In this document: positions 1-11,375 of the stretch, one piece after another | Layout: the number at the start of each line of letters is the position of its first letter | How positions within the stretch are numbered: position 1 is the first letter of the stretch | Assembly: GCF_005160265.1 (NCBI RefSeq) | Contig: NZ_CP039865.1 | Span: forward strand, 3,496,828 to 3,560,827 | Source: Phreatobacter aquaticus | Lineage (GTDB): Bacteria; Pseudomonadota; Alphaproteobacteria; Rhizobiales; Phreatobacteraceae | Length of the DNA: 64,000 nt | Direction: 5' to 3' | Program-made: the position numbers and the translations under genes | The notes under the pieces: generated by a model | Told to the model about the DNA's origin: nothing | The model's database searches: none | What the model saw: the letters and a program-made list of their open reading frames with translations, nothing else

Positions 1-294
1 AAGCATGGGGCCGGGCTCGTTGGCGACGAGATAAGAGATCGCCGAGTCCATGAGCAACGATTTTCCGATTTGGGCCGCTGTCTTAAGGACGAGGGTTGTT
101 GTCCTAGGATTGTACACCTCATCAAGGATGGCCTTTTGATAAGGGAACAGCTTGATGGGGCCGGGGATGGCGACTGCAGATGCCGGAAGCTCGAGGTTTT
201 TCTCTACCCATTCACCCGGAGTGATGCGCTTCGGCGGGACAAGCGCGGCGAGCATCGCCTTAAGAATATCGTCCGCGTCATTGGTCGCGCGCAT
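1..294 (-). CDS. Phage terminase large subunit (GpA-like), N-terminal 98 residues; continues past left edge
   Basis: This is the motor subunit that pumps phage DNA into proheads and cuts it. Reading leftward from the ATG at 294, the first 98 codons are open to the window edge. The N-terminus has the GpA-type lead-in (ITPGEWVEKN, then FPYQKAILDEV) followed by TAAQIGKS at residues 72-79, the Walker A motif in the QxGK form typical of this family. The start overlaps the end of the terminase small-subunit gene by 17 bases, the normal terS-terL coupling. The nuclease domain is not in view, so intactness cannot be judged. Confidence 0.88.
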   Translation of the reverse strand, partial: MRATNDADDILKAMLAALVPPKRITPGEWVEKNLELPASAVAIPGPIKLFPYQKAILDEVYNPRTTTLVLKTAAQIGKSLLMDSAISYLVANEPGPML

Positions 295-898
295 GCTTGG
301 GAATATCCTCTAGGTCGGCGAGCGTGCCGAGGGCATCGCGTAGCTCGTCGTCAATGATCCGCGCGATTGATGCCGCGTCCTGCAGGCCGATGAGGCGTGT
401 CGAGACGCGGATCGGCACGGAAAACAGGGCCTGTCGAACGCGGGCCGCGAAGTTGGCACCTGCGCGGCGAGCCGCTTCCCTGTCGATCAGGTTGCCGCGC
501 TCCTTTTCGACAGCCAGCGTCATTTTCGCTGCCTTAGCCTCCTCCGATTGTATCTTGGCCAATGCGAGCCGCTCACTCGCATCGTTGCGCGCATGGATCT
601 TGCCGCCGTTCTCGCCTCGTGGCGTGATGCCGAGGCCCGCAAGGCTGCTGTCCTTGTCGCCTCCAGCTGCGGCGCCCATGGCCTTGCCCACGTCGATCGA
701 CGCGATCAATTCCGGCATCACCATGTCGACCAATTCGGAGTCGTAGCGCCCGGGCTCAACCTGGGGCAGCATTTCGCGGATCTTGCGGGCTACCGTCTGG
801 TATGACAGGCCGTATTTGGTTGCGATCTCCTTCGGCCCCATCGTGCCGGGTGATACAGCTTTCGATGGCTTCGTCGGTTTCGTCGTGCTTTTGGACAT
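278..898 (-). CDS. Phage terminase small subunit (Nu1-like DNA-packaging protein)
   Basis: A 206-residue protein that should recognise the packaging site and recruit the large subunit encoded just downstream. Residues 20-45 (MGPKEIATKYGLS, then QTVARKI) look like a helix-turn-helix, as in Nu1-type small terminases. The middle (about residues 105-140) is a charged helical stretch with the ERLALAKIQSEEAK and KERGNLIDREAARR patterns common in this family. The Lys/Thr-rich first 18 residues may be a flexible tail. The 17-bp overlap with terL supports the assignment. No strong ribosome site precedes the ATG; a start at Met20 (841) is possible. The 529 bases upstream are non-coding and full of dyads. 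Confidence 0.75.
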   Translation of the reverse strand: MSKSTTKPTKPSKAVSPGTMGPKEIATKYGLSYQTVARKIREMLPQVEPGRYDSELVDMVMPELIASIDVGKAMGAAAGGDKDSSLAGLGITPRGENGGKIHARNDASERLALAKIQSEEAKAAKMTLAVEKERGNLIDREAARRAGANFAARVRQALFSVPIRVSTRLIGLQDAASIARIIDDELRDALGTLADLEDIPKHARDQ

Positions 899-1173: not shown

Positions 1174-1229
1174 TCGTGCATGTACACGATGACATCAGGT
1201 CAGCTGACACAGGGGGCGGGGGCCGGGCT
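1174..1229. repeat. Direct repeat copy 1: dyad TCGTG-N6-CACGA plus GC-rich tail
   Basis: TCGTGCATGTACACGAT at 1174-1190 is a near-perfect dyad and matches 15 of 17 bases of 1393-1409. Both copies are followed by the 11-mer GGGGCCGGGCT (1219-1229 here, 1417-1427 in copy 2). The first copy has 28 extra bases between dyad and 11-mer. The symmetry suggests a protein-binding site. Confidence 0.6.
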
Positions 1230-1427: not shown

Positions 1428-2003
1428 TCAACGCCGGTTGTCGAGGGCAGCCTGCACCGCAGTGCCCAGCCGCTCCGAGAGCGAGCGCGTTGCCGTCCGC
1501 TTCCACAGCTCTTGGACCGGCCCGGGCTGAGCCAGCGACGTCGCCGGGTGTTCACCGTAGATCGCCTTGATAGGCTTCCTCGCCGAACCCTTGCGGACTG
1601 CGATGAATGATCCACCGTTGGCCTTGACCTGGAACGCCTTCGGCAGGCGGAGCGCGGTTGACTTGCCCGGGTTGAGCCGGTGCACCGATGCCGAGAGGCC
1701 GCTGCCCTTGCTGATGGACGCGCCAGCCACGTTCGCGATGCCGATCCGCAGCTTGCTCACCCGCCATGTGGCCGTGAGCGTGGCCGCGCTGGAGCCTTGC
1801 ACGAGAGGCGTGGCGTCGCGGAACCGCGACTGAGGAATGCCCATGTCAGCCGCCATCGCAACCATGGTTTCGCGCCGGGCATCACGCGCCGCGCCGTCAA
1901 CGCCTGCCCGGATCGCCTTCACGATCTCACCGTTGCTCAGTGTGGCCATGGCCGCGGTGAGCGGGCCGAAGTCAGCCTGAACATGCATGGACACGTTGGC
2001 CAT
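1428..2003 (-). CDS. Phage minor tail protein Z-like
   Basis: A 191-residue protein resembling the lambda gpZ family, which acts in tail completion and head-tail joining. It has the family layout: an N-terminal helical part (residues 10-50), a basic central part with IPQSRFRDATPLVQG and TATWRV, then a beta-rich segment, and a C-terminal helix starting at PVQELWKRTATRSLSERL. It is the last gene of the leftward operon K-D-Z (2983 to 1428), four bases after the decoration gene. In lambda, Z lies well downstream of the capsid genes; here it directly follows a decoration gene and precedes the terminase, so the order is unusual. The family call rests on pattern recognition only. Confidence 0.6.
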   Translation of the reverse strand: MANVSMHVQADFGPLTAAMATLSNGEIVKAIRAGVDGAARDARRETMVAMAADMGIPQSRFRDATPLVQGSSAATLTATWRVSKLRIGIANVAGASISKGSGLSASVHRLNPGKSTALRLPKAFQVKANGGSFIAVRKGSARKPIKAIYGEHPATSLAQPGPVQELWKRTATRSLSERLGTAVQAALDNRR

Positions 2004-2007
2004 GGCG

Positions 2008-2424
2008 CTATCCTGAGAAGCCCTGCGACTTCACGCCGAAGCCGACGGCCCGGAGCGCGATCTTCAGGTCAAGCATTGTCCAGCCGGGCGCATAGACGAG
2101 AGCCGCCTCGTTCAGCATTCCACCCGTCGCGACGGACAGATTGACCGGGCCGTTGGCGCCGGATGCCGCCGTGTTGATGCGGTGCACGTTCACAAATCGC
2201 GGCTTCTGAGATCCATCGGTCGCCGCCGGGTCCGACAGCTTGACCATGCCAGCATCGGGGCCGGTGTCGGCCTCTCCGAGCACAGCGCCGGTCGGGAGGA
2301 TCTGGCCAGCCGCGATGACGCGCGGGACGGTGGAATAGGAGCCCTCGCCGGATTGGAGGAACAGCGGAATGTGCACGAGGGAGTCGACGGTGCCCTGATG
2401 GGCACGCTCATTCGGGACGGACAT
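2008..2424 (-). CDS. Phage head decoration protein (lambda gpD-like)
   Basis: A 138-residue protein resembling lambda gpD, which binds as trimers on the expanded capsid and stabilises it against packaged DNA. The N-terminus (about residues 10-50) has HIPLFLQSGEGSYSTVPRVI followed by AAGQILPTGAVLGE. The C-terminal half carries SVATGGMLNEAALVYAPGW then LKIALRAVGF, matching the 'G.(F/M)N..AL......ALR..G' pattern of the family. It lies between an unrecognised gene (16-base gap) and the gpZ-like gene (4-base gap), clearly one operon. No major capsid gene is next to it, which is odd for this family. Confidence 0.68.
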   Translation of the reverse strand: MSVPNERAHQGTVDSLVHIPLFLQSGEGSYSTVPRVIAAGQILPTGAVLGEADTGPDAGMVKLSDPAATDGSQKPRFVNVHRINTAASGANGPVNLSVATGGMLNEAALVYAPGWTMLDLKIALRAVGFGVKSQGFSG

Positions 2425-2440: not shown

Positions 2441-2983
2441 TCAGGCCGCGCGGGCCGGGTTGTGAGGGTTGCCAGTGTTGTCCAGCCACTGCCAGCGGCG
2501 CGGATCCCATGACCACGATCCGAAAGCCTGCGGAGGCTCGGGCCGGAGGAATTTGGCGACGATGCGAGCCGCCGGGATGTGCGCGCGGGCCTGAACCCAC
2601 TTTGCCGCCGAAAGACCATCGGTCGCATAGTCGGCCAACTCGACCTTGGGCAGCCGCCGCGAAGCAAAGTCGGCTCGGCAATTGGCCGCGATGTCGAAGT
2701 CGCGACAGACCTCCTCGAGGCGTTCCAATGGGATAATCTCAGCCGCCAGCCGTTCACGGGTTGAGGGCTCATTCTTCGCCACCAGGTCGGCATGCGAGGC
2801 CGTGGCTTGGTCGAGACGTTCCTGCAGCAGCCGCGCATGGAACGCGTCGATCTTGGCCTGTTCGACTCGCTCTTCCGGGGACAGGGTCGAGTAGACGCCG
2901 GGCTCGGCATCATCGGTCGAGAGGGCAGCGTCGGCCATAGCCTCAGCGTCTGCGGCGGCTGCCGTGTGTTTCGTTCGGGACAT
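2441..2983 (-). CDS. Unrecognised phage protein, first gene of the decoration/tail operon
   Basis: I do not recognise this 180-residue protein. The start at 2983 is chosen because GGAGAA lies at good distance upstream; the frame stays open to 3082, but that extension crosses a strong stem-loop and reads Pro/Gly-rich. The N-terminal 40 residues are Ala-rich and acidic, residues 45-95 are charged and probably helical (LSPEERVEQAKIDAFHARL), and the C-terminus is Trp/Pro-rich (FGSWSWDPRRWQWLD). It leads the operon with the gpD- and gpZ-like genes, so a structural or assembly role is plausible, but nothing in the sequence proves it. Confidence 0.6.
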   Translation of the reverse strand: MSRTKHTAAAADAEAMADAALSTDDAEPGVYSTLSPEERVEQAKIDAFHARLLQERLDQATASHADLVAKNEPSTRERLAAEIIPLERLEEVCRDFDIAANCRADFASRRLPKVELADYATDGLSAAKWVQARAHIPAARIVAKFLRPEPPQAFGSWSWDPRRWQWLDNTGNPHNPARAA

Positions 2984-3063
2984 GGGGTGTTCTCCAGCGC
3001 CATAGCGCAAATGGCCCGCGCCGGAGAGCCGGGCAGGGTGGTTAGGTTCAGGTTGTGAGGATG

Positions 3064-3119
3064 GCGGACCCGTCCCACCCATAGACCGGACAAGGTCTTA
3101 TCAATAAGGACGGGTCCGC
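3064..3119. other. Nested stem-loop in the leader of the decoration/tail operon
   Basis: GCGGACCCGTCC (3064-3075) pairs perfectly over 12 bp with GGACGGGTCCGC (3108-3119). Inside the loop ATAGACC (3081-3087) pairs with GGTCTTAT (3094-3101), one base bulged. The structure lies between the promoter at 3234-3253 and the first gene at 2983, so it would form in the 5' leader RNA. It has no terminator-type U-run; an attenuator, protein-binding RNA or DNA cruciform site are all possible. Confidence 0.65.
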
Positions 3120-3233
3120 AATTGTCGAGATCCAGCAAGGACGAACCGGCTCAATCGACTATTCAAGAATACAGCCGATCCGCTATCTCGTCAAACTGAG
3201 AAAAGCGCGTGATATCAACGGGTTGTCACTTTT

Positions 3234-3253
3234 ATTATATTGACAGCGTGTCA
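3234..3253 (-). promoter_or_regulatory. Leftward promoter with 13-bp palindromic operator (copy 1)
   Basis: On the minus strand a perfect -10 (TATAAT, 3239-3234) is separated by one base from the palindrome TGACAGCGTGTCA (3241-3253, plus-strand reading). No good -35 is present: the palindrome occupies that side. Transcription would begin near 3227 and run left into the operon at 2983. The identical layout occurs at 10338-10357. A bound protein could either block or replace the -35 contact. Confidence 0.6.
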
Positions 3254-3413
3254 GTATTCAGGGGCACCTATAAGAAAGTCTTACTTGGCAAGGATCGGTT
3301 AAACTATCGCCAGAAATAAGCCTAGGACGGGCGATCTCGACTTCTCCGGCATCACCCTAGCCGAGGTGCTGTCAATTGCCGTCCTGCCCCCGTTTCCCGG
3401 TCACGGCGGGAGA

Positions 3414-3503
3414 ATGCCGAGCGACCTGGAGCGGATCAAACTGACTTGCGAGAGATCCCGGGACGTGGTCCGCTCAGGTGACATGACGTTGGGGGAACCA
3501 TGA
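3414..3503 (+). CDS. Possible 29-residue ORF overlapping the secreted-protein start
   Basis: An ATG at 3414 opens a 29-codon frame rich in charged residues (MPSDLERIKLTCERSRDVV) whose TGA overlaps the ATG of the secreted protein by the ATGA junction at 3500-3503. Such junctions often couple translation. The frame is open back to a TAA near 3300 without an ATG, but a GTG is available near 3367. It could be a leader ORF or chance. Confidence 0.25.
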   Translation: MPSDLERIKLTCERSRDVVRSGDMTLGEP

Positions 3504-3838
3504 TCCAGAAGTCTCTTGCCGCCGCACTCTTCGCCTTGGCCCTTGCCGCGCCAGCCCAAGCCCAACAGCGTATGGTCTGGGTCCAAGGGCCGGTTATCAG
3601 CATCGCGGTTGTCGGCTCGGGTGGAAGTGCGAGCCGCCAATTGCAGGTCAATATCGCTGGAAATTCATTCACGAACGCAGGTGGTGTCGCTACTGGAGCC
3701 TTCGCTGGTCTGGTGACCGTGCTGTCCGGGGCATACTTCGCCCGGCAACCGGTTTGCGCTGGAATCTATAACGGCAATATCACGCTGGTTCAGGTCAGCC
3801 GGAACCCTGATCCTTGCGGACCAGCAGCGCGCCGCTGA
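3500..3838 (+). CDS. Small secreted protein of unknown function (possible lysogenic-conversion gene)
   Basis: A 112-residue protein with a clear Sec signal peptide: a short basic start (MIQK), a hydrophobic Ala/Leu core, and AQA at residues 20-22 as cleavage site. The mature part, about 90 residues, is Gly/Ser/Val-rich, mostly predicted strand, with two cysteines near the C-terminus that could form a disulfide. GGGGGAA precedes the ATG. It is the only confident gene on the plus strand within the element and is flanked by non-coding DNA, typical of a 'moron' expressed from a lysogen. I do not recognise the family. Confidence 0.6.
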   Translation: MIQKSLAAALFALALAAPAQAQQRMVWVQGPVISIAVVGSGGSASRQLQVNIAGNSFTNAGGVATGAFAGLVTVLSGAYFARQPVCAGIYNGNITLVQVSRNPDPCGPAARR

Positions 3839-3953
3839 CCATCGCTCCGTCGTCGCTCCACCGTCGCTCCGCCTTGCAGCTGCTAGCTATCGGGCGACTG
3901 ATCGGGAGCCGGTTGCATGACCACGCCGGGTGCGCTGGGTGCCGGGTATCTAG

Positions 3954-3966
3954 TGGCACCGTGTCA
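3954..3966. promoter_or_regulatory. Degenerate operator-like site TGGCACCGTGTCA
   Basis: This matches the 13-bp palindrome of the promoters at 3241 and 10345 except at one inner base of the left arm. It lies 116 bases after the secreted-protein gene, at the left of the putative origin. Confidence 0.4.
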
Positions 3967-4071
3967 GCCGCGCTCACTCTCAGGTGGTGCCGATATGGGC
4001 TTGTCCCGCCGTCCCATTTGTCCCCCTGTTTTGGTGCACTCGCTATACAGGAGCTATATACGGGGTGCGCA

Positions 4072-4091
4072 TGTCACGCTGTCATGTATAT
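4072..4091 (+). promoter_or_regulatory. Operator-like site with weak rightward -10
   Basis: TGTCACGCTGTCA (4072-4084) matches 12 of 13 bases of the promoter palindrome as read in the direction of transcription. One base later comes GTATAT (4086-4091), a weak -10 in the position expected from the two leftward promoters. If active it would fire rightward, antisense to the primase-helicase gene, toward the plus-strand terminator at 6970-7011. Confidence 0.35.
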
Positions 4092-4246
4092 CCGGCCTAT
4101 TATATGTACCTCCCGTATATCTCTATTATTAGGGGACATAGGGGACAGAGTATAAGAATATGAGTTATGGTTTTGATTATACTGGACAATTCCCGTCTCT
4201 TTTTCGGTCCCATGAGAGATCTGGTGACAGGGACCGTGGGACATAA

Positions 4247-4305
4247 TTACACGCTGTCCGTGACGTCGTGTCGGAATTTACACGCTGTCCGTGACGTCGT
4301 GTCGG
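4247..4305. repeat. Two tandem 28-bp direct repeats (31-bp period)
   Basis: The same 28 bases occur at 4247-4274 and 4278-4305, separated by AAT. Each unit begins with TTACACGCTGTCC, a degenerate form of the operator palindrome, and contains a second related stretch, TGACGTCGTGTCG (4261-4273, 4292-4304). The result is four similar sites in 59 bases, an iteron-like cluster. Confidence 0.7.
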
Positions 4306-4380
4306 CCCGCAAATAGTGAAGACTGTTGGTCTGTCCCCGAAACGTGCTTTCCTGAAAATGGTCCCTACCCGCAGGGGCCA

Positions 4381-4408
4381 GATCGGAGGCACCGAAGCGC
4401 CCCCGATC
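4381..4408 (-). terminator. Stem-loop just past the primase-helicase gene
   Basis: GATCGGAGGC (4381-4390) pairs with GCCCCCGATC (4399-4408), nine of ten bases, around an 8-base loop. It lies 10 bases beyond the stop codon of the leftward gene. No strong U-run follows on the minus strand, so terminator activity is uncertain. Confidence 0.35.
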
Positions 4409-4418
4409 GTCGCGGCAA

Positions 4419-6950
4419 TCACATGGTCGTCGCCTTGGTGAAGGCTTCTTCGGCCTCGTCCAGAGGTCGGAGGTAGACACCCCACGGCCTCACCCCGGTC
4501 TCGGGATCGGCGGGGCCGCGCGACCCTTTCCCCTTGTATCCCGGCGCCACCATGCCGATCCGAACAAGCTCGGGGAATAGCTGGCTCCATTTCGTATGGT
4601 AGCGCTCGCCGTGAAGCTTGGTGCCGTCCCGGTAGCGGCTCAGGATCTCCTTGCTGTCGAGGAAGATACGGCCCTTCTCGTCACCGTCCCGGTGCCACAG
4701 TTCCTGCTCTCGCAGTTCATCGGCGACCCAGTCCTGCCACGCCGGGCGATTGTGATCGATCTGGTTCTGCAGTTCCTCGGTCACATACGGCTTGTGCAGG
4801 TCCGTCGTGATCTGGCGCCGGAGGAGGTGGTGCAAGAGCGCCTCGTACCCTCCGTTCTCCAGTTCAACCATCATGGCCTTGAAGAAGCCCGTGTCCTGCG
4901 TCCGCTTCGGGGACACCCTGCAAATTGTCCACCTCCGCTCGCCTACAACGGCGGGGATCGCCGCGTCTGCGTTGGTGGTGACCAGCAACCGGGCGAATTT
5001 CCGGGCCGGTGCGGCATCAACCCCCTTGCGCTCGATCTGACCTTCGTCGGCGGAGATCAGATCCTTAAGCTTGTTCTCAGCCTTCTTATCTTTCGACCAG
5101 AACGCTTCTTCACCCTGTATCAGAAGGGCATTGCTCTGGGACGCATTGAACCTGCCGAGAAGGTGTTCCGAGCTAGACATGGACGTGTAGTGGTTGCCGA
5201 GGAGCCGACCGATCACCTTGCCGAAGATCGTCTTGCCCGTGCCGTGCTCTTTCGAGACTAGCGCCACGGCCACACTGGGCTTTTCCATGGGTGTCTGGAA
5301 GATCGACGCCAGCCAGTCCCATATCCAAGTGTCGAGCGCCTTGTCGCCGCTGCAGATGGTATTGAGGACGTGGTCCGTGAACATGTCGAAACTGCCGCCG
5401 GGCTTCTCCTTCACCCCCCAGCCCATCCAAGTGTTGAAGGCCGTTCCGCATTCGGCCTGCGGCTTGCCCGGGAGGAACTCGCTCGTTTCGTATTTCCGGG
5501 CGACCTTGCTCGCGAGCCAAGCGCTGGCGACCTGGATCGGCTTGCGCGTCTCCTCATCCGATTCCGGGGCATCAACGTCGCGGGAGCCGTGTGCGAGGCT
5601 CGCCGCCTTGCTGTCCACATAGAAGACGTCCTCCCCCCTGTGCTGCCTGAAATGCTCATAGGATGAGAGCGTGAACCGGCGGATGCCTCGCGAGTCTTCG
5701 ACGATTGTCGCGACCTTCGATGCGCCCTCCATGCTCACCCGCGCATATTTGCGATTGTACCGGAGGAACCATCCGCGCAACGTCGTGGGCTCGGCTTCGG
5801 GCTCGGTGGCTTTGCCGCCCGCGGTGCGCGTCTGGGGTGCGCCTGCGTCGTCCTCATCGGTCACGGCATTGAACTGCCCAGCGCCGATCACGCGCTTCGA
5901 CCATCCGGGCGGCAAAGTCCTCTTGCGAGCGAAGCGCTCAACAATATCGCGGATCTCGCCGACCATCTCCTCATCGACGCCGTTCTCGCGGAACAGCTCC
6001 TCGAACAGGCCGACCGCCGTGTCCATGGAGAGGTTGTAATCGATCAGCAGGTTGGAGCGCTGCATGATGAACGGTCGGCGCGTTCCTTCGGAACCCGCGC
6101 CCGCCTCGCGCCACTCGGATGCCAGCCACGCCTTCATTTCCATGATGGCGTCGAGGCTGTCCTCTTCCTCCTGCACGAGGCGCGCGCCCTCGGTCGTGAA
6201 CTGGCGCTCCAGATCGGTCTCATCAAGCACGCGCTGCGGCACGGCCACGGCCTCGGCACCATCGAGGAACCCGAAGCGCTTGGGCAGCGGATCCTTGCCG
6301 CCACCCTCGATCGCCGGACGCGCGGTATAGATCACCTGACTCGGGCGCCACACCGAGGCGTCAACATGGCGCTCGCCCATCTTGTCGCCGCCGACCCATC
6401 GGCGCATTCCGGCCTGTGTGACCTCGGCATCAAGCCAAAAGAACAGGCGAATCTTCCCGATCCCGGCCTTGAGCCCAAAGCCCGCCGTGAGCATGTAAAA
6501 ACACCGGACCTTATGGAACTCCGGCGGCAGGAAGGATCGACCCAACCGCACGATCTCCTCAGGCTCCTTCATCGGGTCGAAGAGGTCCGGATCGAACGGC
6601 AAGCTGTCCATGTCGAACGAGGTCCAGCGCCTCGGCACCTCGCGAAGGGTGGCCGTGCCGCGCTTCGTGTCGGCCAGGTCAATGCCGTCCGCAGGGTGTC
6701 CCCACACGATGGAAGTCCGGGGGTCCTTGGACAGGGTGCCGATGAGGATGCCGAGGCTGTTCAGGTCAGTGACCGGCGCGATCTCAAAGGAGAACCGCTT
6801 GGCGTTCTCATAGCCTTTGGTGACCTTGCCGGACTTGGTCTTCGGATCCCATTTGATGGTCTTCCGGAGTTCAGGGCCCTTCGACCTCAATACCGTGACG
6901 GTGTCGGACTGATCCGGGGTTGATACGCTGTCTGAAATAGGGTAAGTCAT
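4419..6950 (-). CDS. Primase-polymerase / D5-like SF3 helicase fusion (replication protein of the element)
   Basis: An 843-residue protein that should both prime and unwind DNA for replication of the element. The N-terminal part (about 60-240) looks like an archaeo-eukaryotic primase: SFDMDS with D113 and D115 as the metal-binding pair, LTAGFGLKAGIGKIRLFFWLD, and DASVWRPSQVIY. After a linker (about 365-395) a D5/VapE-type ATPase follows: HGTGKT Walker A (K573, T574), IQGEEAFW Walker B (E614, E615), TTN sensor (N660) and GERRW (670-674) supplying the arginine finger. All motifs are intact. The start at 6950 has only a weak ribosome site. It is the last gene of the leftward operon from 10255 and abuts the putative origin. 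Confidence 0.85.
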   Translation of the reverse strand: MTYPISDSVSTPDQSDTVTVLRSKGPELRKTIKWDPKTKSGKVTKGYENAKRFSFEIAPVTDLNSLGILIGTLSKDPRTSIVWGHPADGIDLADTKRGTATLREVPRRWTSFDMDSLPFDPDLFDPMKEPEEIVRLGRSFLPPEFHKVRCFYMLTAGFGLKAGIGKIRLFFWLDAEVTQAGMRRWVGGDKMGERHVDASVWRPSQVIYTARPAIEGGGKDPLPKRFGFLDGAEAVAVPQRVLDETDLERQFTTEGARLVQEEEDSLDAIMEMKAWLASEWREAGAGSEGTRRPFIMQRSNLLIDYNLSMDTAVGLFEELFRENGVDEEMVGEIRDIVERFARKRTLPPGWSKRVIGAGQFNAVTDEDDAGAPQTRTAGGKATEPEAEPTTLRGWFLRYNRKYARVSMEGASKVATIVEDSRGIRRFTLSSYEHFRQHRGEDVFYVDSKAASLAHGSRDVDAPESDEETRKPIQVASAWLASKVARKYETSEFLPGKPQAECGTAFNTWMGWGVKEKPGGSFDMFTDHVLNTICSGDKALDTWIWDWLASIFQTPMEKPSVAVALVSKEHGTGKTIFGKVIGRLLGNHYTSMSSSEHLLGRFNASQSNALLIQGEEAFWSKDKKAENKLKDLISADEGQIERKGVDAAPARKFARLLVTTNADAAIPAVVGERRWTICRVSPKRTQDTGFFKAMMVELENGGYEALLHHLLRRQITTDLHKPYVTEELQNQIDHNRPAWQDWVADELREQELWHRDGDEKGRIFLDSKEILSRYRDGTKLHGERYHTKWSQLFPELVRIGMVAPGYKGKGSRGPADPETGVRPWGVYLRPLDEAEEAFTKATTM
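6921..6933. promoter_or_regulatory. Operator-like site inside the 5' end of the primase-helicase gene
   Basis: TGATACGCTGTCT at 6921-6933 resembles the 13-bp palindrome read in the plus direction (10 of 13 bases against TGACACGCTGTCA). It lies 17-29 bases inside the coding region, so it may be chance or a site for autoregulation. Confidence 0.25.
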
Positions 6951-6969
6951 TGTCTTGCTTTGTGAATGC

Positions 6970-7011
6970 GGGCCGGTGCGAGGGTGATTGCCTCGCCCGG
7001 CCCTTCTTTTT
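6970..7011 (+). terminator. Strong intrinsic terminator on the plus strand, opposite to the surrounding operon
   Basis: GGGCCGG-T-GCGAGG (6970-6983) pairs with CCTCGC-CCGGCCC (6991-7003), 13 bp with one bulged T, followed directly by TTCTTTTT (7004-7011). This is a textbook intrinsic terminator for rightward transcription. All neighbouring genes run leftward, so it would end an antisense transcript; on the minus strand the same hairpin sits in the leader of the primase-helicase gene without a U-run. Confidence 0.75.
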
Positions 7012-7045
7012 GTCGCCCGCTCGTGCGGCGACGTTGGTCTCGTGG

Positions 7046-7579
7046 TTACGCCGTGAACTCGACCCGTTTGGCGAAACGCTGGTAATCTTCGAAAGTCTCA
7101 ATCGATGCCGCGTCTGGGACGTCTCCGCGCACCGTCCAACGCTGGAGATCCATCACGCTGCGCGCCGGACTGCACCCCAGCCTAGCGCCGCGCCCGATGG
7201 TAACGCCGGGGCCGACTTTGACCGGTCCGGAGATGGTGACACCGTCCAACACGCGCGCGCCGAGGCCGATGACCGACTGTCCTCCGACGCGGACCCCGGC
7301 GCCCAGTTGCGCCCCTGCCGCCACCACGCTTTCGGCGGCTAAGACCGTGCCATCGCTGATCGTCGCGCCATTGCGAATTGTTGCACCCCGACCGACCTTG
7401 ACGCCACGGCCTAGGACCACGCCGCGGTCGACTAGGGCATGGGCGTGAACCTCGGAACCGTCGCCGATCACCGCCGATTGATCGATCTGGGCCGCAAGGT
7501 GGATGAAGCAAGCGGCACCAATTCGGAACCCCTGTTGCCGCAACGCGTCGACCTTGTTGCACCCGTAATCCATGGTCAT
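7046..7579 (-). CDS. Hexapeptide-repeat left-handed beta-helix protein of unknown role
   Basis: A 177-residue protein made largely of hexapeptide repeats of the [LIV]-[G/x]-x-x-[ASVT]-x type, about 17 in a row from residue 32 to 135 (for example VGRGAT, IRNGAT, ISDGTV, LGAGVR, VGPGVT, IGRGAR). This predicts a left-handed beta-helix, normally a trimer as in LpxA-type acyltransferases and gamma-carbonic anhydrases. No acyltransferase signature or clear metal-binding His triad is evident. The C-terminal 40 residues are non-repetitive. AGGAGAAC precedes the ATG. It sits between the dead and the live D5-like helicase genes, an unexpected place for this fold. Confidence 0.75.
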   Translation of the reverse strand: MTMDYGCNKVDALRQQGFRIGAACFIHLAAQIDQSAVIGDGSEVHAHALVDRGVVLGRGVKVGRGATIRNGATISDGTVLAAESVVAAGAQLGAGVRVGGQSVIGLGARVLDGVTISGPVKVGPGVTIGRGARLGCSPARSVMDLQRWTVRGDVPDAASIETFEDYQRFAKRVEFTA

Positions 7580-7606
7580 GTTCTCCTGTTCTGTGAGGGG
7601 TTGCGA

Positions 7607-8554
7607 TCAAGCCGCTATCGACGCGCGCGGATCAAACCGGCTGAGATCTCGGCCCATCAGGTGAGCGAGGAAGCCCCCGGCGCCCGTCTCCAGCTGGGCC
7701 TCGATGGCGTTGAACTCGTCCAGCGTGCGCCCGAACCGGCCCGCCGTGATGGGCACTAGCTCAGGCCAATCCGGGGTAGCCCCCGGCGCGGCGGAGAGCA
7801 TGAAGCGCTGGTAGTTGATCTGAGGCCGGTAATCCCGCTGCGGCCGCACGGCCTCGCCTGCCAGCAACCGCCGAAGCTTCGCCAGTCGCGGCTTGGTGCC
7901 GGTGTCGAGAGCTAGCGTCGCGTGACCGATCAGCAGGTCGCGCGACGGGATAGGACCGCCATAGAGGATCGGATCGACGTTGTAGCTGTGCGAACCGGCA
8001 AGGCGACGGATGATCCGGGCCAAGAGCAAGGGCACGTCGCTGTCGCCGGTTTCAAGCACCAGTGCCGTACCGGGCCGCTCCGCCGGGCGTTGCACCATCT
8101 GAGCCAGCCAATCGAGCACATAGGCGGTCTGGGCTTCTGATCCGCTGGCAATCCGGTCGCGGATAAAGCGCTCGATCAGTGACCAATCGGCCCGACCATC
8201 CGGCGCCACGGCCCAGCCGCTCCAGCTGTTCCAGAAGAGCCCCTGATCGCCAGGTGCGAGATCCGGGGTGAACAGGACACCCGCCGGGAAGATCCTCTTG
8301 CCGGGCCACGCCTGCCACAGAGCCCTGATTTCCGCTTTGCAGGTGAAGCCGTCGCCGATGACGTCGATCGTCTTCGCGCCGGGGCCGATGGTCAGAAAGT
8401 CCCGAACAGACCACAGGCTGTAGGGCAGGCCGTGCCGGGTCCGCAGGATCTGGAGGCCGCGCGACGTGAAGGCGAAGGCATGCTCCAGCCCGAAGGCCTG
8501 CAGGTGCGGGATGACATGGGGGTTGCGGTCCCAGAAATGGGGGTCGATCTGCAT
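7607..8554 (-). CDS. D5-like helicase homologue with destroyed ATPase motifs (pseudo-helicase)
   Basis: A 315-residue protein that aligns by eye with the ATPase half of the primase-helicase encoded at 4419-6950. Shared blocks are W-x-GWAV (residues 111-116), Y/W-V/I-x-DWLA-x-x-x-Q-x-P, the ALVL strand, and GGFLAHLMGRDLSRF near the C-terminus. At the Walker A position it reads ETGDSDVP (168-175): the Lys is Val174 and the Thr is Pro175. The second Walker B acid is lost (ALDTG), and GERRW is replaced by a segment reading AGRFGRT. No primase domain is present. The start at 8554 follows AAGGAA; the frame is open to 8653. It probably acts structurally, for example as a helicase partner or inhibitor; that is inference. 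Confidence 0.7.
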   Translation of the reverse strand: MQIDPHFWDRNPHVIPHLQAFGLEHAFAFTSRGLQILRTRHGLPYSLWSVRDFLTIGPGAKTIDVIGDGFTCKAEIRALWQAWPGKRIFPAGVLFTPDLAPGDQGLFWNSWSGWAVAPDGRADWSLIERFIRDRIASGSEAQTAYVLDWLAQMVQRPAERPGTALVLETGDSDVPLLLARIIRRLAGSHSYNVDPILYGGPIPSRDLLIGHATLALDTGTKPRLAKLRRLLAGEAVRPQRDYRPQINYQRFMLSAAPGATPDWPELVPITAGRFGRTLDEFNAIEAQLETGAGGFLAHLMGRDLSRFDPRASIAA

Positions 8555-8589
8555 CAGGGTTCCTTGAAGGGTGCGCGGGGCTGCCGCGA

Positions 8590-9195
8590 TCAGAAGGCGT
8601 TGTGTCGGCTGTAGGTCGCGAGCGTCTCGCCATCGGGCCGGGCCATGCCGCACCAGACGGCGGAGGATCCGAGAACGGCCCTGATGCGCTCGGCATCAAG
8701 CCTCATCGCCAGCCGGAACCCGACCACGATCGCCGCTTCGATGGGGCCGACCGCGGCGCGACAGGCGCGGCGCGCATGGTCGAGGATCTCGCCGACGCGG
8801 CCCGGCTTTGCCTCGCCACGGATCAGGGCGTGACGGGAGAGGTTGGCATCAAGGCGGGCGAAGGTCCGGCCCCGAACCTGGATGGGAGCCCAGCGGCAGC
8901 CGCCGGTCCTTTGGATCTCGATTGCCCGGGTCTCCTCCGGGTTCTCTTCCCGCCAGCGCTCGGCATCGCGAGCCACAAGCCACTCCGTCACCGTGTAAGG
9001 GCACCGGGCCGCGTCTGGGCCTATGGACTGGGTGAGTCGCCGCGATAGGGCGTCCGGCTCGAGCCCTGCCCGGCGCGCGATATTGGCGAGGAGCGAGACG
9101 ATAGAGGCGGGGGTGATGGTGTAGCCGTGGCGGGCAGCGCGGGCCTTCAGGCGGTCGGCGGCTGCGATGAGGTCGGCGAGGGCAGGGGCATGCAT
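8590..9195 (-). CDS. Unrecognised protein of the replication operon
   Basis: A 201-residue, mostly helical, Ala/Arg-rich protein I do not recognise. It has an N-terminal segment (MHAPALADLIAAADRLKARA) and an Arg-rich middle with TVTEWLVARDAERWREEN, then a mixed C-terminal half. It follows the 120-residue gene by 93 bases and precedes the pseudo-helicase by 35 bases, so it belongs to the same leftward operon. No strong ribosome site is visible before the ATG at 9195. It lacks membrane segments and any nucleotide-binding motif. Confidence 0.55.
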   Translation of the reverse strand: MHAPALADLIAAADRLKARAARHGYTITPASIVSLLANIARRAGLEPDALSRRLTQSIGPDAARCPYTVTEWLVARDAERWREENPEETRAIEIQRTGGCRWAPIQVRGRTFARLDANLSRHALIRGEAKPGRVGEILDHARRACRAAVGPIEAAIVVGFRLAMRLDAERIRAVLGSSAVWCGMARPDGETLATYSRHNAF

Positions 9196-9288
9196 GGTGG
9201 TGTGTCCGGTCTTCTGGGTCTCCGTGCGCCGTCGTCAATCTTCAAGCTTGTGGGCCGCGCATGCCCGGTGGAGGGGAAGGGGCGCGAC

Positions 9289-9651
9289 CTAGAGGCCGCG
9301 CACCGTGATGTTCCAAGCGGCGCCGGGGTCGCCCTCAATCGCCGCGATAACAAGGTCGCTCGACGTCTCAAGAATGAAGCCGTGCGTGCCGGGGTCGCTG
9401 GCGGGGCTGATTTCCAACCTGACCTTGCCGGGTTGGGGCTGAGGTTCGGCCCGGCGCGCGGCCTCTTCTTCGGCCCGCTCGTGCCGTTCGATGATCTCGC
9501 GAAGCTCATCGTGGTGCTTGCGAAGGGCGTCCAAAGGCAACGCCGCAGCGAAGGCCTGCACAGCGCTCGTGAGCGCCCGGCCTGCCGGGCTATCGGCGAG
9601 GCGCCGCGCCGCGTCGTGGTCGAGGTCTAGGCCGTCAATCTGCAGGGTCAT
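9289..9651 (-). CDS. Unrecognised 120-residue protein, translationally coupled
   Basis: The ATG at 9651 overlaps the stop of the upstream gene (ATGA), with GGAGCC in front. The first 70 residues are helical, with a charged coiled-coil-like stretch (residues 43-67: DELREIIERHERAEEEAARRAE). The last 50 residues are predicted strands, ending in NITVRGL. It is part of the leftward operon headed by the AlpA-like gene. No family is recognised. Confidence 0.6.
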   Translation of the reverse strand: MTLQIDGLDLDHDAARRLADSPAGRALTSAVQAFAAALPLDALRKHHDELREIIERHERAEEEAARRAEPQPQPGKVRLEISPASDPGTHGFILETSSDLVIAAIEGDPGAAWNITVRGL

Positions 9652-10040
9652 GACAGGCTCCGTCGATCGCGCGGCGCCTGAGCGTTGACGGCTTCGGCGA
9701 TTTCGAGGGCGCGGCGGCTGCCGGGCTCGTTGACCTCAGCCGAGGCTTCCGACCAAAGCTCAGTCGAGAGGCCGGACATGGCGGCACCGAGGAGCGCCTT
9801 GGACAGGGTCGCCAATGCCTCTTCGTTCGCCTCGGCACCCGCCATGAGACGGAGTTGAGCCCCGACAAATAGGGAGATACCGAACAGTTCGTCTTCGATC
9901 ACCTCTTGCAGGCGTTCGGTCGCCCCATGAAGGGCAAGGGTCGTGGCCGGGGTGATGAGGTAACGGACGCCAGCGGGGAGGCTTGCGGCGAGCGCGGCCT
10001 CGGCAGCGGGGATCAGGGCCGTCTGTTTGCGCTTGCTCAT
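9648..10040 (-). CDS. Unrecognised 130-residue helical protein, translationally coupled
   Basis: The ATG at 10040 overlaps the stop of the AlpA-like gene (ATGA) and is preceded by GGGAGCGG. The protein is Ala/Leu/Glu-rich and predicted almost all helical, with a basic start (MSKRKQT) and a polar, Arg-rich end (APRDRRSLS). No motif or membrane segment is apparent. The tight overlaps on both sides suggest co-production with its neighbours. Confidence 0.6.
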   Translation of the reverse strand: MSKRKQTALIPAAEAALAASLPAGVRYLITPATTLALHGATERLQEVIEDELFGISLFVGAQLRLMAGAEANEEALATLSKALLGAAMSGLSTELWSEASAEVNEPGSRRALEIAEAVNAQAPRDRRSLS

Positions 10041-10255
10041 GCTGCCGCTCCCGTGCGCGGGGTATATGCCGGGAGGTTTTCGCAGAACCTGTGGATCTCG
10101 CTCACCCGGACGAATGCCCGGCCACCCATCTTGACGGCCTTCAGCTGACCTGAGTTCAGCAAATCATAGAATTTGCCACGCGAAACATGCAAAGCTTCCA
10201 TCGCTTTGCCAGCGGGAAGAAGAGGAGATTCGATTTCCTTAACGACTGTAGGCAA
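10037..10255 (-). CDS. AlpA-like / excisionase-type helix-turn-helix DNA-binding protein
   Basis: A 72-residue protein with a MerR-type winged helix as found in AlpA and excisionase-family regulators: LPAGKAMEALHVSRGKFYDLL (about 13-33) is the HTH, then the wing GQLKAVKMGGRAFVRVSEIHRF. The start is TTG at 10255 with GGAG nine bases upstream. AlpA proteins switch on integrase or replication genes of P4-like elements and PICIs. It is first in the operon ending with the primase-helicase and lies directly below the promoter-palindrome at 10338-10357, so it is the leading candidate to bind that palindrome. Confidence 0.8.
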   Translation of the reverse strand: MPTVVKEIESPLLPAGKAMEALHVSRGKFYDLLNSGQLKAVKMGGRAFVRVSEIHRFCENLPAYTPRTGAAA

Positions 10256-10337
10256 GAGACACTCTCCATAGAGCGCTGAGGCTGTACATAAGACCTCAGA
10301 TGACTATGGACGGAAGAATATCATTGAGCACAGGGCA

Positions 10338-10357
10338 AGTATAGTGACACGGTGTCA
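10338..10357 (-). promoter_or_regulatory. Leftward promoter with 13-bp palindromic operator (copy 2)
   Basis: On the minus strand a -10 (TATACT, 10343-10338) is one base away from TGACACGGTGTCA (10345-10357, plus-strand reading), exactly the geometry seen at 3234-3253. The -35 side is again poor. Transcription would run left through the AlpA-like gene to the primase-helicase. A CTGAGG/CCTCAG inverted repeat (10276-10281, 10294-10299) lies in the leader. Confidence 0.6.
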
Positions 10358-11216: not shown

Positions 11217-11301
11217 TTGGTCCCCAGTGCATAAGGAAGGACACAAGGGGGTCGGCGAAGGTCGAGAAACTCAGCGTTTTCAATGGGTTGGGGGAAGGAA
11301 G

Positions 11302-11375
11302 TGGAGGCCTCGCCCGGAATCGAACCGGGGTGCAAGGATTTGCAGTCCTCTGCGTAACCACTCCGCCACGAGGCC
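11302..11375 (-). tRNA. tRNA-Cys (anticodon GCA)
   Basis: The minus strand reads a complete cloverleaf of 74 bases including an encoded CCA. The acceptor stem is GGCCTCG/CGAGGCC, the anticodon loop contains GCA, the T-arm is CCCGG-TTCGATT-CCGGG, and the discriminator base is U, as required for cysteine tRNA. Its 3' end faces the phage-like element and is the likely attachment site. Confidence 0.97.

Follow-up and report, generated by a model that had tools for sequence, protein, structure and literature searches.

Do two promoters of a single integrated element, one facing replication genes and the other facing genes for virion parts, answer to the same regulator? The locus that raises this question is a stretch of 64,000 nucleotides of Phreatobacter aquaticus (contig NZ_CP039865.1, positions 3,496,828 to 3,560,827; hereafter the window, with position 1 as its first letter), which an element of 23,994 bp, inserted at tRNA-Cys, enters from the left (L006:7151 to window position 11315). 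We find that a shared operator at the two promoters, sites A and B, is well supported. One regulator probably controls several functions of the element, because the same 13-letter site is present at both promoters and weaker copies of it lie at the putative replication origin.

The sites and their -10 hexamers are as follows:

3241..3253, minus strand: site A, palindrome TGACACGCTGTCA, candidate operator for the decoration/neck operon
3234..3239, minus strand: -10 hexamer TATAAT, one base from site A
10345..10357, minus strand: site B, TGACACCGTGTCA, a perfect palindrome and candidate operator for the alpA/replication operon
10338..10343, minus strand: -10 hexamer TATACT, one base from site B

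Read along the minus strand, the sequence at site A is TGACACGCTGTCA-A-TATAAT (3253 to 3234) and that at site B is TGACACCGTGTCA-C-TATACT (10357 to 10338), which confirms the preliminary description of this DNA in placing a palindrome one base from a leftward -10 at both sites. The 13-bp pattern TGACA-N3-TGTCA is common to the two, as are the one-base gap and the leftward direction. In each case the palindrome fills the promoter spacer, and a transcription start about 7 bases past the -10 would put its centre near -20. Neither promoter has a decent -35, as had also been claimed, because the best candidates (CTGAAT and TGCAGA, one per promoter, spacer 16, read by eye) match TTGACA at 3 of 6 positions and because neither promoter was among the predictions of a promoter scan. 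Gene content likewise agrees with the earlier assignment of replication genes to one operon and of decoration and tail genes to the other, i.e. an AlpA-to-primase operon lies downstream of site B, and o180, decoration protein D and a neck/tail-completion gene follow site A in that order. The 244-nt leader after site A (2984-3227, minus strand) has a predicted strong structure with a long stem (z -3.1); there is no U-run behind the stem, so it is not a plain terminator.

The palindrome is rare elsewhere. TGACAN3TGTCA is found twice in the window against an expectation of 0.03, a number that 0 of 100 shuffles reach. The complete genome (4,974,952 bp) contains three exact copies, namely sites A and B and a third that falls in a 402-aa reading frame, CheB-like by our reading; at three copies in 4.97 Mb, the palindrome is no frequent feature of the host chromosome. 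Each of the 11 other genomes of the genus has 0-2 exact copies. When one mismatch is allowed, the genome has 37 sites, and 5 of these fall within the element, which represents 0.5% of the genome (Poisson, ~1e-6; 7e-4 when just the three sites not used to define the motif are counted). All five are intergenic, in an element that is 86% coding by the gene list. The three additional sites, and the features around them, carry no strand assignment:

1190..1202: near-copy TGACATCAGGTCA (9/10), between the neck gene and terS; no adjoining -10, read by eye
3954..3966: near-copy TGGCACCGTGTCA (9/10), just outside the origin iterons
4072..4084: near-copy TGTCACGCTGTCA (9/10), midway along the putative origin
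4002..4147: putative replication origin, with TGTCCC iterons in two inverted sets and an AT-rich core
4247..4305: two 28-bp direct repeats with 31-bp spacing and four 8/10 motif copies, between origin and primase

Shuffled elements contain a mean of 0.33 and a maximum of 3 sites at 9/10 or better, compared with five in the real one. Any palindrome with 5-bp arms that occurs twice beside a -10, with equal gap and direction, was recovered in 0 of 600 dinucleotide shuffles of the element, and a looser version of the paired pattern in 6 of 600. The proposal that one regulator governs both early and structural genes is thus supported by the identical site, gap and direction, by genomic rarity, and by the three intergenic near-copies. 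The copies around the origin, which the preliminary description had overlooked, extend the original observation.

With moderate confidence, we propose that one symmetric, probably dimeric regulator acts on the palindrome, occluding both promoters and sitting in the origin, and so exerts element-wide control. Such a protein would use the exact sites in the promoters of the alpA-to-primase and decoration/neck operons, along with the weaker ones in the middle of the origin, at its edges and ahead of terS. While the element is quiet, the protein, when bound, would keep RNA polymerase from both promoters and might also prevent initiation at the origin; once it is released, replication and particle genes would be switched on together. 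Its gene might be an orphan open reading frame (ORF) of the element, or the protein might be supplied by the host or a helper.

The suggestion that such a protein represses comes from the same operator outside the element. A scan with TGACACSSTGTCANTATANT, using one genome per species, returned 72 loci, mostly Clostridia by their titles, which we weighed by neighbouring genes only. A profile built on six of them finds a TetR-family gene at 47 of the 72, no more than 800 bp away in 43 of these, and an N-terminal TetR profile finds one at 49. In the Clostridia (L229-L300), members of one TetR-like family have in common the operator TGACACSSTGTCA at one base from a -10, and these sites adjoin the family's own gene, or transporter or flavin-reductase-like genes. 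TetR proteins mostly repress, and the recurrence of the same site and one-base gap beside their genes points to a repressor-type placement. Other adjoining genes, identified by eye, are Arc-like (L245) and GntR/MocR-like (L269). The former locus belongs to Paraburkholderia ginsengiterrae; its palindrome, ATAGTGACACGGTGTCACTAT, is longer, is matched over most of its length by site B, and overlaps the beginning of the Arc-like ORF. Among the looser-pattern matches listed from viral contigs (at least 120 in all), a CI/Cro-like (XRE-like) pair adjoins the site in one phage contig (L049); the strict pattern has 2 matches in the viral contigs, our own copy included, vs 1 for a scrambled control. Judged from its neighbours, the motif with this spacing is a repressor-type operator that recurs, several protein families having arrived at it. 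It does not reveal which protein binds here, because TetR, GntR-, Arc- and XRE-like genes all adjoin it elsewhere.

Several observations weigh against a repressor shared in this way. The sites at the origin and on the terS side are imperfect, with 8-9 of 10 positions matching, and the lack of a -35 is more in keeping with activation than with repression. No repressor gene was recognised in the element, or beside the matching host sites examined. The 11 other genomes of the genus, the viral contigs and the genome contigs yielded no close relatives, so the sites have no phylogenetic footprint. Finally, 1 of 28 comparison loci also has a palindrome family beside two -10s (AGCGC, gap 3).

A host regulator recognisable by its own operator was considered and rejected: of the 32 sites outside the element (up to one mismatch), 29 stretches were analysed by comparing their ORFs with the clostridial TetR N-terminal profile, and none had a match. 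All sites in these stretches fall in an open frame of at least 90 codons (stop-to-stop, a weak criterion), and the sole outside pair (556396/556579) lies within and just past one coding sequence.

Which protein could bind, then? The strongest competing explanation is that the element's AlpA-like protein recognises the palindrome in the spacer and activates both its own operon and the structural one:

10037..10255, minus strand: AlpA-like small protein, 72 aa, HTH_17 / excisionase domain

It is the sole recognised regulator-type DNA-binding protein of the element, its gene is the first past site B, and the lack of a -35 at either promoter would suit an activator. There are published precedents: AlpA of the Escherichia coli phage-inducible chromosomal island (PICI) EcCICFT073 activates its own promoter and island genes (PMC6092414), positive autoregulation is reported for EcCIMP1 (PMC11773190), and the AlpA of Pseudomonas aeruginosa, a different protein of the same name, has a putative binding element between -10 and -35 (PMC7969949). 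However, none of seven loci with AlpA-like relatives shares the palindrome/-10 arrangement, although proteins related at 32-40% identity may have other sites. Excisionase-type proteins, moreover, usually bind direct repeats and not a perfect palindrome. We therefore regard AlpA as a possible binder, and activation by it as the less probable account. The preliminary description had named AlpA as a candidate; its position as sole recognised regulator speaks for it, and the relatives' loci, together with the mostly TetR company of the site elsewhere, against it. Its other candidate, a regulator from a helper phage, found no backing: no gene for one was identified, and no other genome of the genus has clustered sites. 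A helper phage sharing the sites was rejected for the same reason, with no other genome of the genus having more than two exact copies.

It is far less likely that the sites are iterons of a replication initiator that regulates itself, as in iteron plasmids. Motif copies do cluster around the origin, and motif and iteron have TGTC in common. However, the element's family-type iterons are a different word, TGTCCC, with an 8-9-bp period (4130-4147 and, inverted, 4002-4024); these were read by eye, our script having graded the element 'weak', and the two sets are the densest GTCCC/GGGAC stretch in the window. Relatives of the DUF5906 primase have short iterons with the same 8-9-bp period in the first ~330 bp past the gene, in two inverted sets around a ~95-bp core with outliers on either side (L173-L212, L223-L225). 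At least five iteron copies were detected by the script in 23 of 28 loci (27 relatives and this element, i.e. those with enough sequence past the primase gene; G446 was left out), including two small alphaproteobacterial plasmids and one Citrobacter plasmid, and the five with weak iterons are this element, G338, G068, pTH2c and pSR5. In none of the 23 do two or more iterons cluster anywhere but at the origin. The separate TGTCCC iterons and the origin-only iterons of relatives led us to reject the palindrome as an initiator's iteron.

Coincidence, i.e. two good palindromes near two -10s with no common function, is similarly improbable: the pattern was picked after 64 kb had been read, a comparable pair exists at 1 of the 28 comparison loci, and the sites have no phylogenetic footprint, but the 600 shuffles produced no such pair and the three near-copies are all intergenic and in the same element.

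The remaining features of the element in the window include:

278..898, minus strand: terminase small subunit (TerS)
1428..2003, minus strand: neck / tail completion protein
2008..2424, minus strand: head decoration protein D
2441..2983, minus strand: o180, first gene past site A, no family match
4419..6950, minus strand: primase-helicase, 843 aa, DUF5906; phage primase
11302..11375, minus strand: tRNA-Cys, with its 3' end (11301-11315) as right attachment repeat

The left end is marked by a 15-bp repeat and an integrase (L006:7151-8606) and the right end by the tRNA-Cys at 11301; an Rfam scan found nothing beyond the tRNA. The insertion is absent from the 11 other genomes of the genus, in which the flanks are ~0.39-0.49 kb (8 of 11), ~1.5 kb (2) or 7.5 kb (1) apart, compared with 24.1 kb here. 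A single half-site, CGTGTCA, lies at L006 ~7256, 105 bp inside the left end and near the start of the integrase gene, and a PBECR3-type phage nuclease-like gene is also found near that end (L006:10241-10654, minus strand). Two further genes of the replication operon, both on the minus strand, encode a hexapeptide-repeat (left-handed beta-helix) protein (7046-7579) and o348 (7607-8653), a second, shorter relative of the primase-helicase (28% identity over 476-713).

Other genes of the element encode TerL (gpA type), a lambda-type portal, W-like and FII-like adaptors, a tail assembly chaperone and a tape measure protein. A 148-aa ORF matches the C-terminal part only of a head maturation protease profile. 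No major capsid protein was recognised in PHROGs and Pfam scans of the ORFs tested, which a very divergent one could escape, and no tail tube, baseplate or fibre gene was recognised in the element, which could be either a satellite or a prophage in decay. In the search for close relatives, matches from order and class samples reached no more than 28-42%, mostly in the helicase domain, and the tape measure, o201, o130 and AlpA-like proteins have no match in phage records. Predicted from single sequences, the folds of o130 and o201 have mean predicted local distance difference test scores of 53 and 42, too low to be of use.

It is conceivable, if doubtful, that a single element-wide operator here joins the alpA/replication promoter, the virion-part promoter and the origin in a new type of satellite, with its own terminase, portal, decoration and tape measure proteins and a borrowed capsid shell. 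The operator set (two promoters and an origin) is compact and open to testing, and a short stretch of DNA could serve as bait for the binding protein. Should this be AlpA, its target site would be defined; if not, the missing repressor may turn up.

How does this layout compare with known systems? Like Gram-negative PICIs of the EcCICFT073 type, the element has an integrase at one end, an insertion at a tRNA-type attachment site and an AlpA-like regulator. Its primase-replication gene also precedes an origin whose two iteron sets, read by eye, flank an AT-rich region, a plan described for the E. coli PICI too (PMC6092414). It differs from Gram-negative PICIs of this type in its length of 24 kb and in having alpA at the end opposite int and on the other strand, not downstream of int; unlike classical PICIs, it carries TerL, portal, tape measure, decoration and neck genes beyond terS. 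An operator shared by alpA and structural genes is not described in the accessible part of the EcCICFT073 report (PMC6092414).

The autoregulatory operators of clostridial TetR genes offer the same palindrome, TGACACSSTGTCA, one base from a -10, whereas no TetR match exists among the element's ORFs. Unlike in the autoregulation of iteron-plasmid Rep proteins, the promoter operator is not built from the origin iteron TGTCCC. Capsid-forming PICIs are satellites with their own packaging genes, and the element resembles them in having such genes; it differs in lacking a recognised major capsid protein and in carrying tape measure and tail assembly chaperone genes. The archaeal plasmid pRN1 (orf56/orf904) similarly has a small regulator gene, a primase-helicase gene and a putative origin just downstream, but this origin is a stem-loop without iterons and the plasmid has no structural operon (PMC4234260). 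Listings from an open-licence library on shared satellite operators, AlpA sites and DUF5906 origins include no account of the shared-operator arrangement. The layout is a new version of an already known form of element-wide control.

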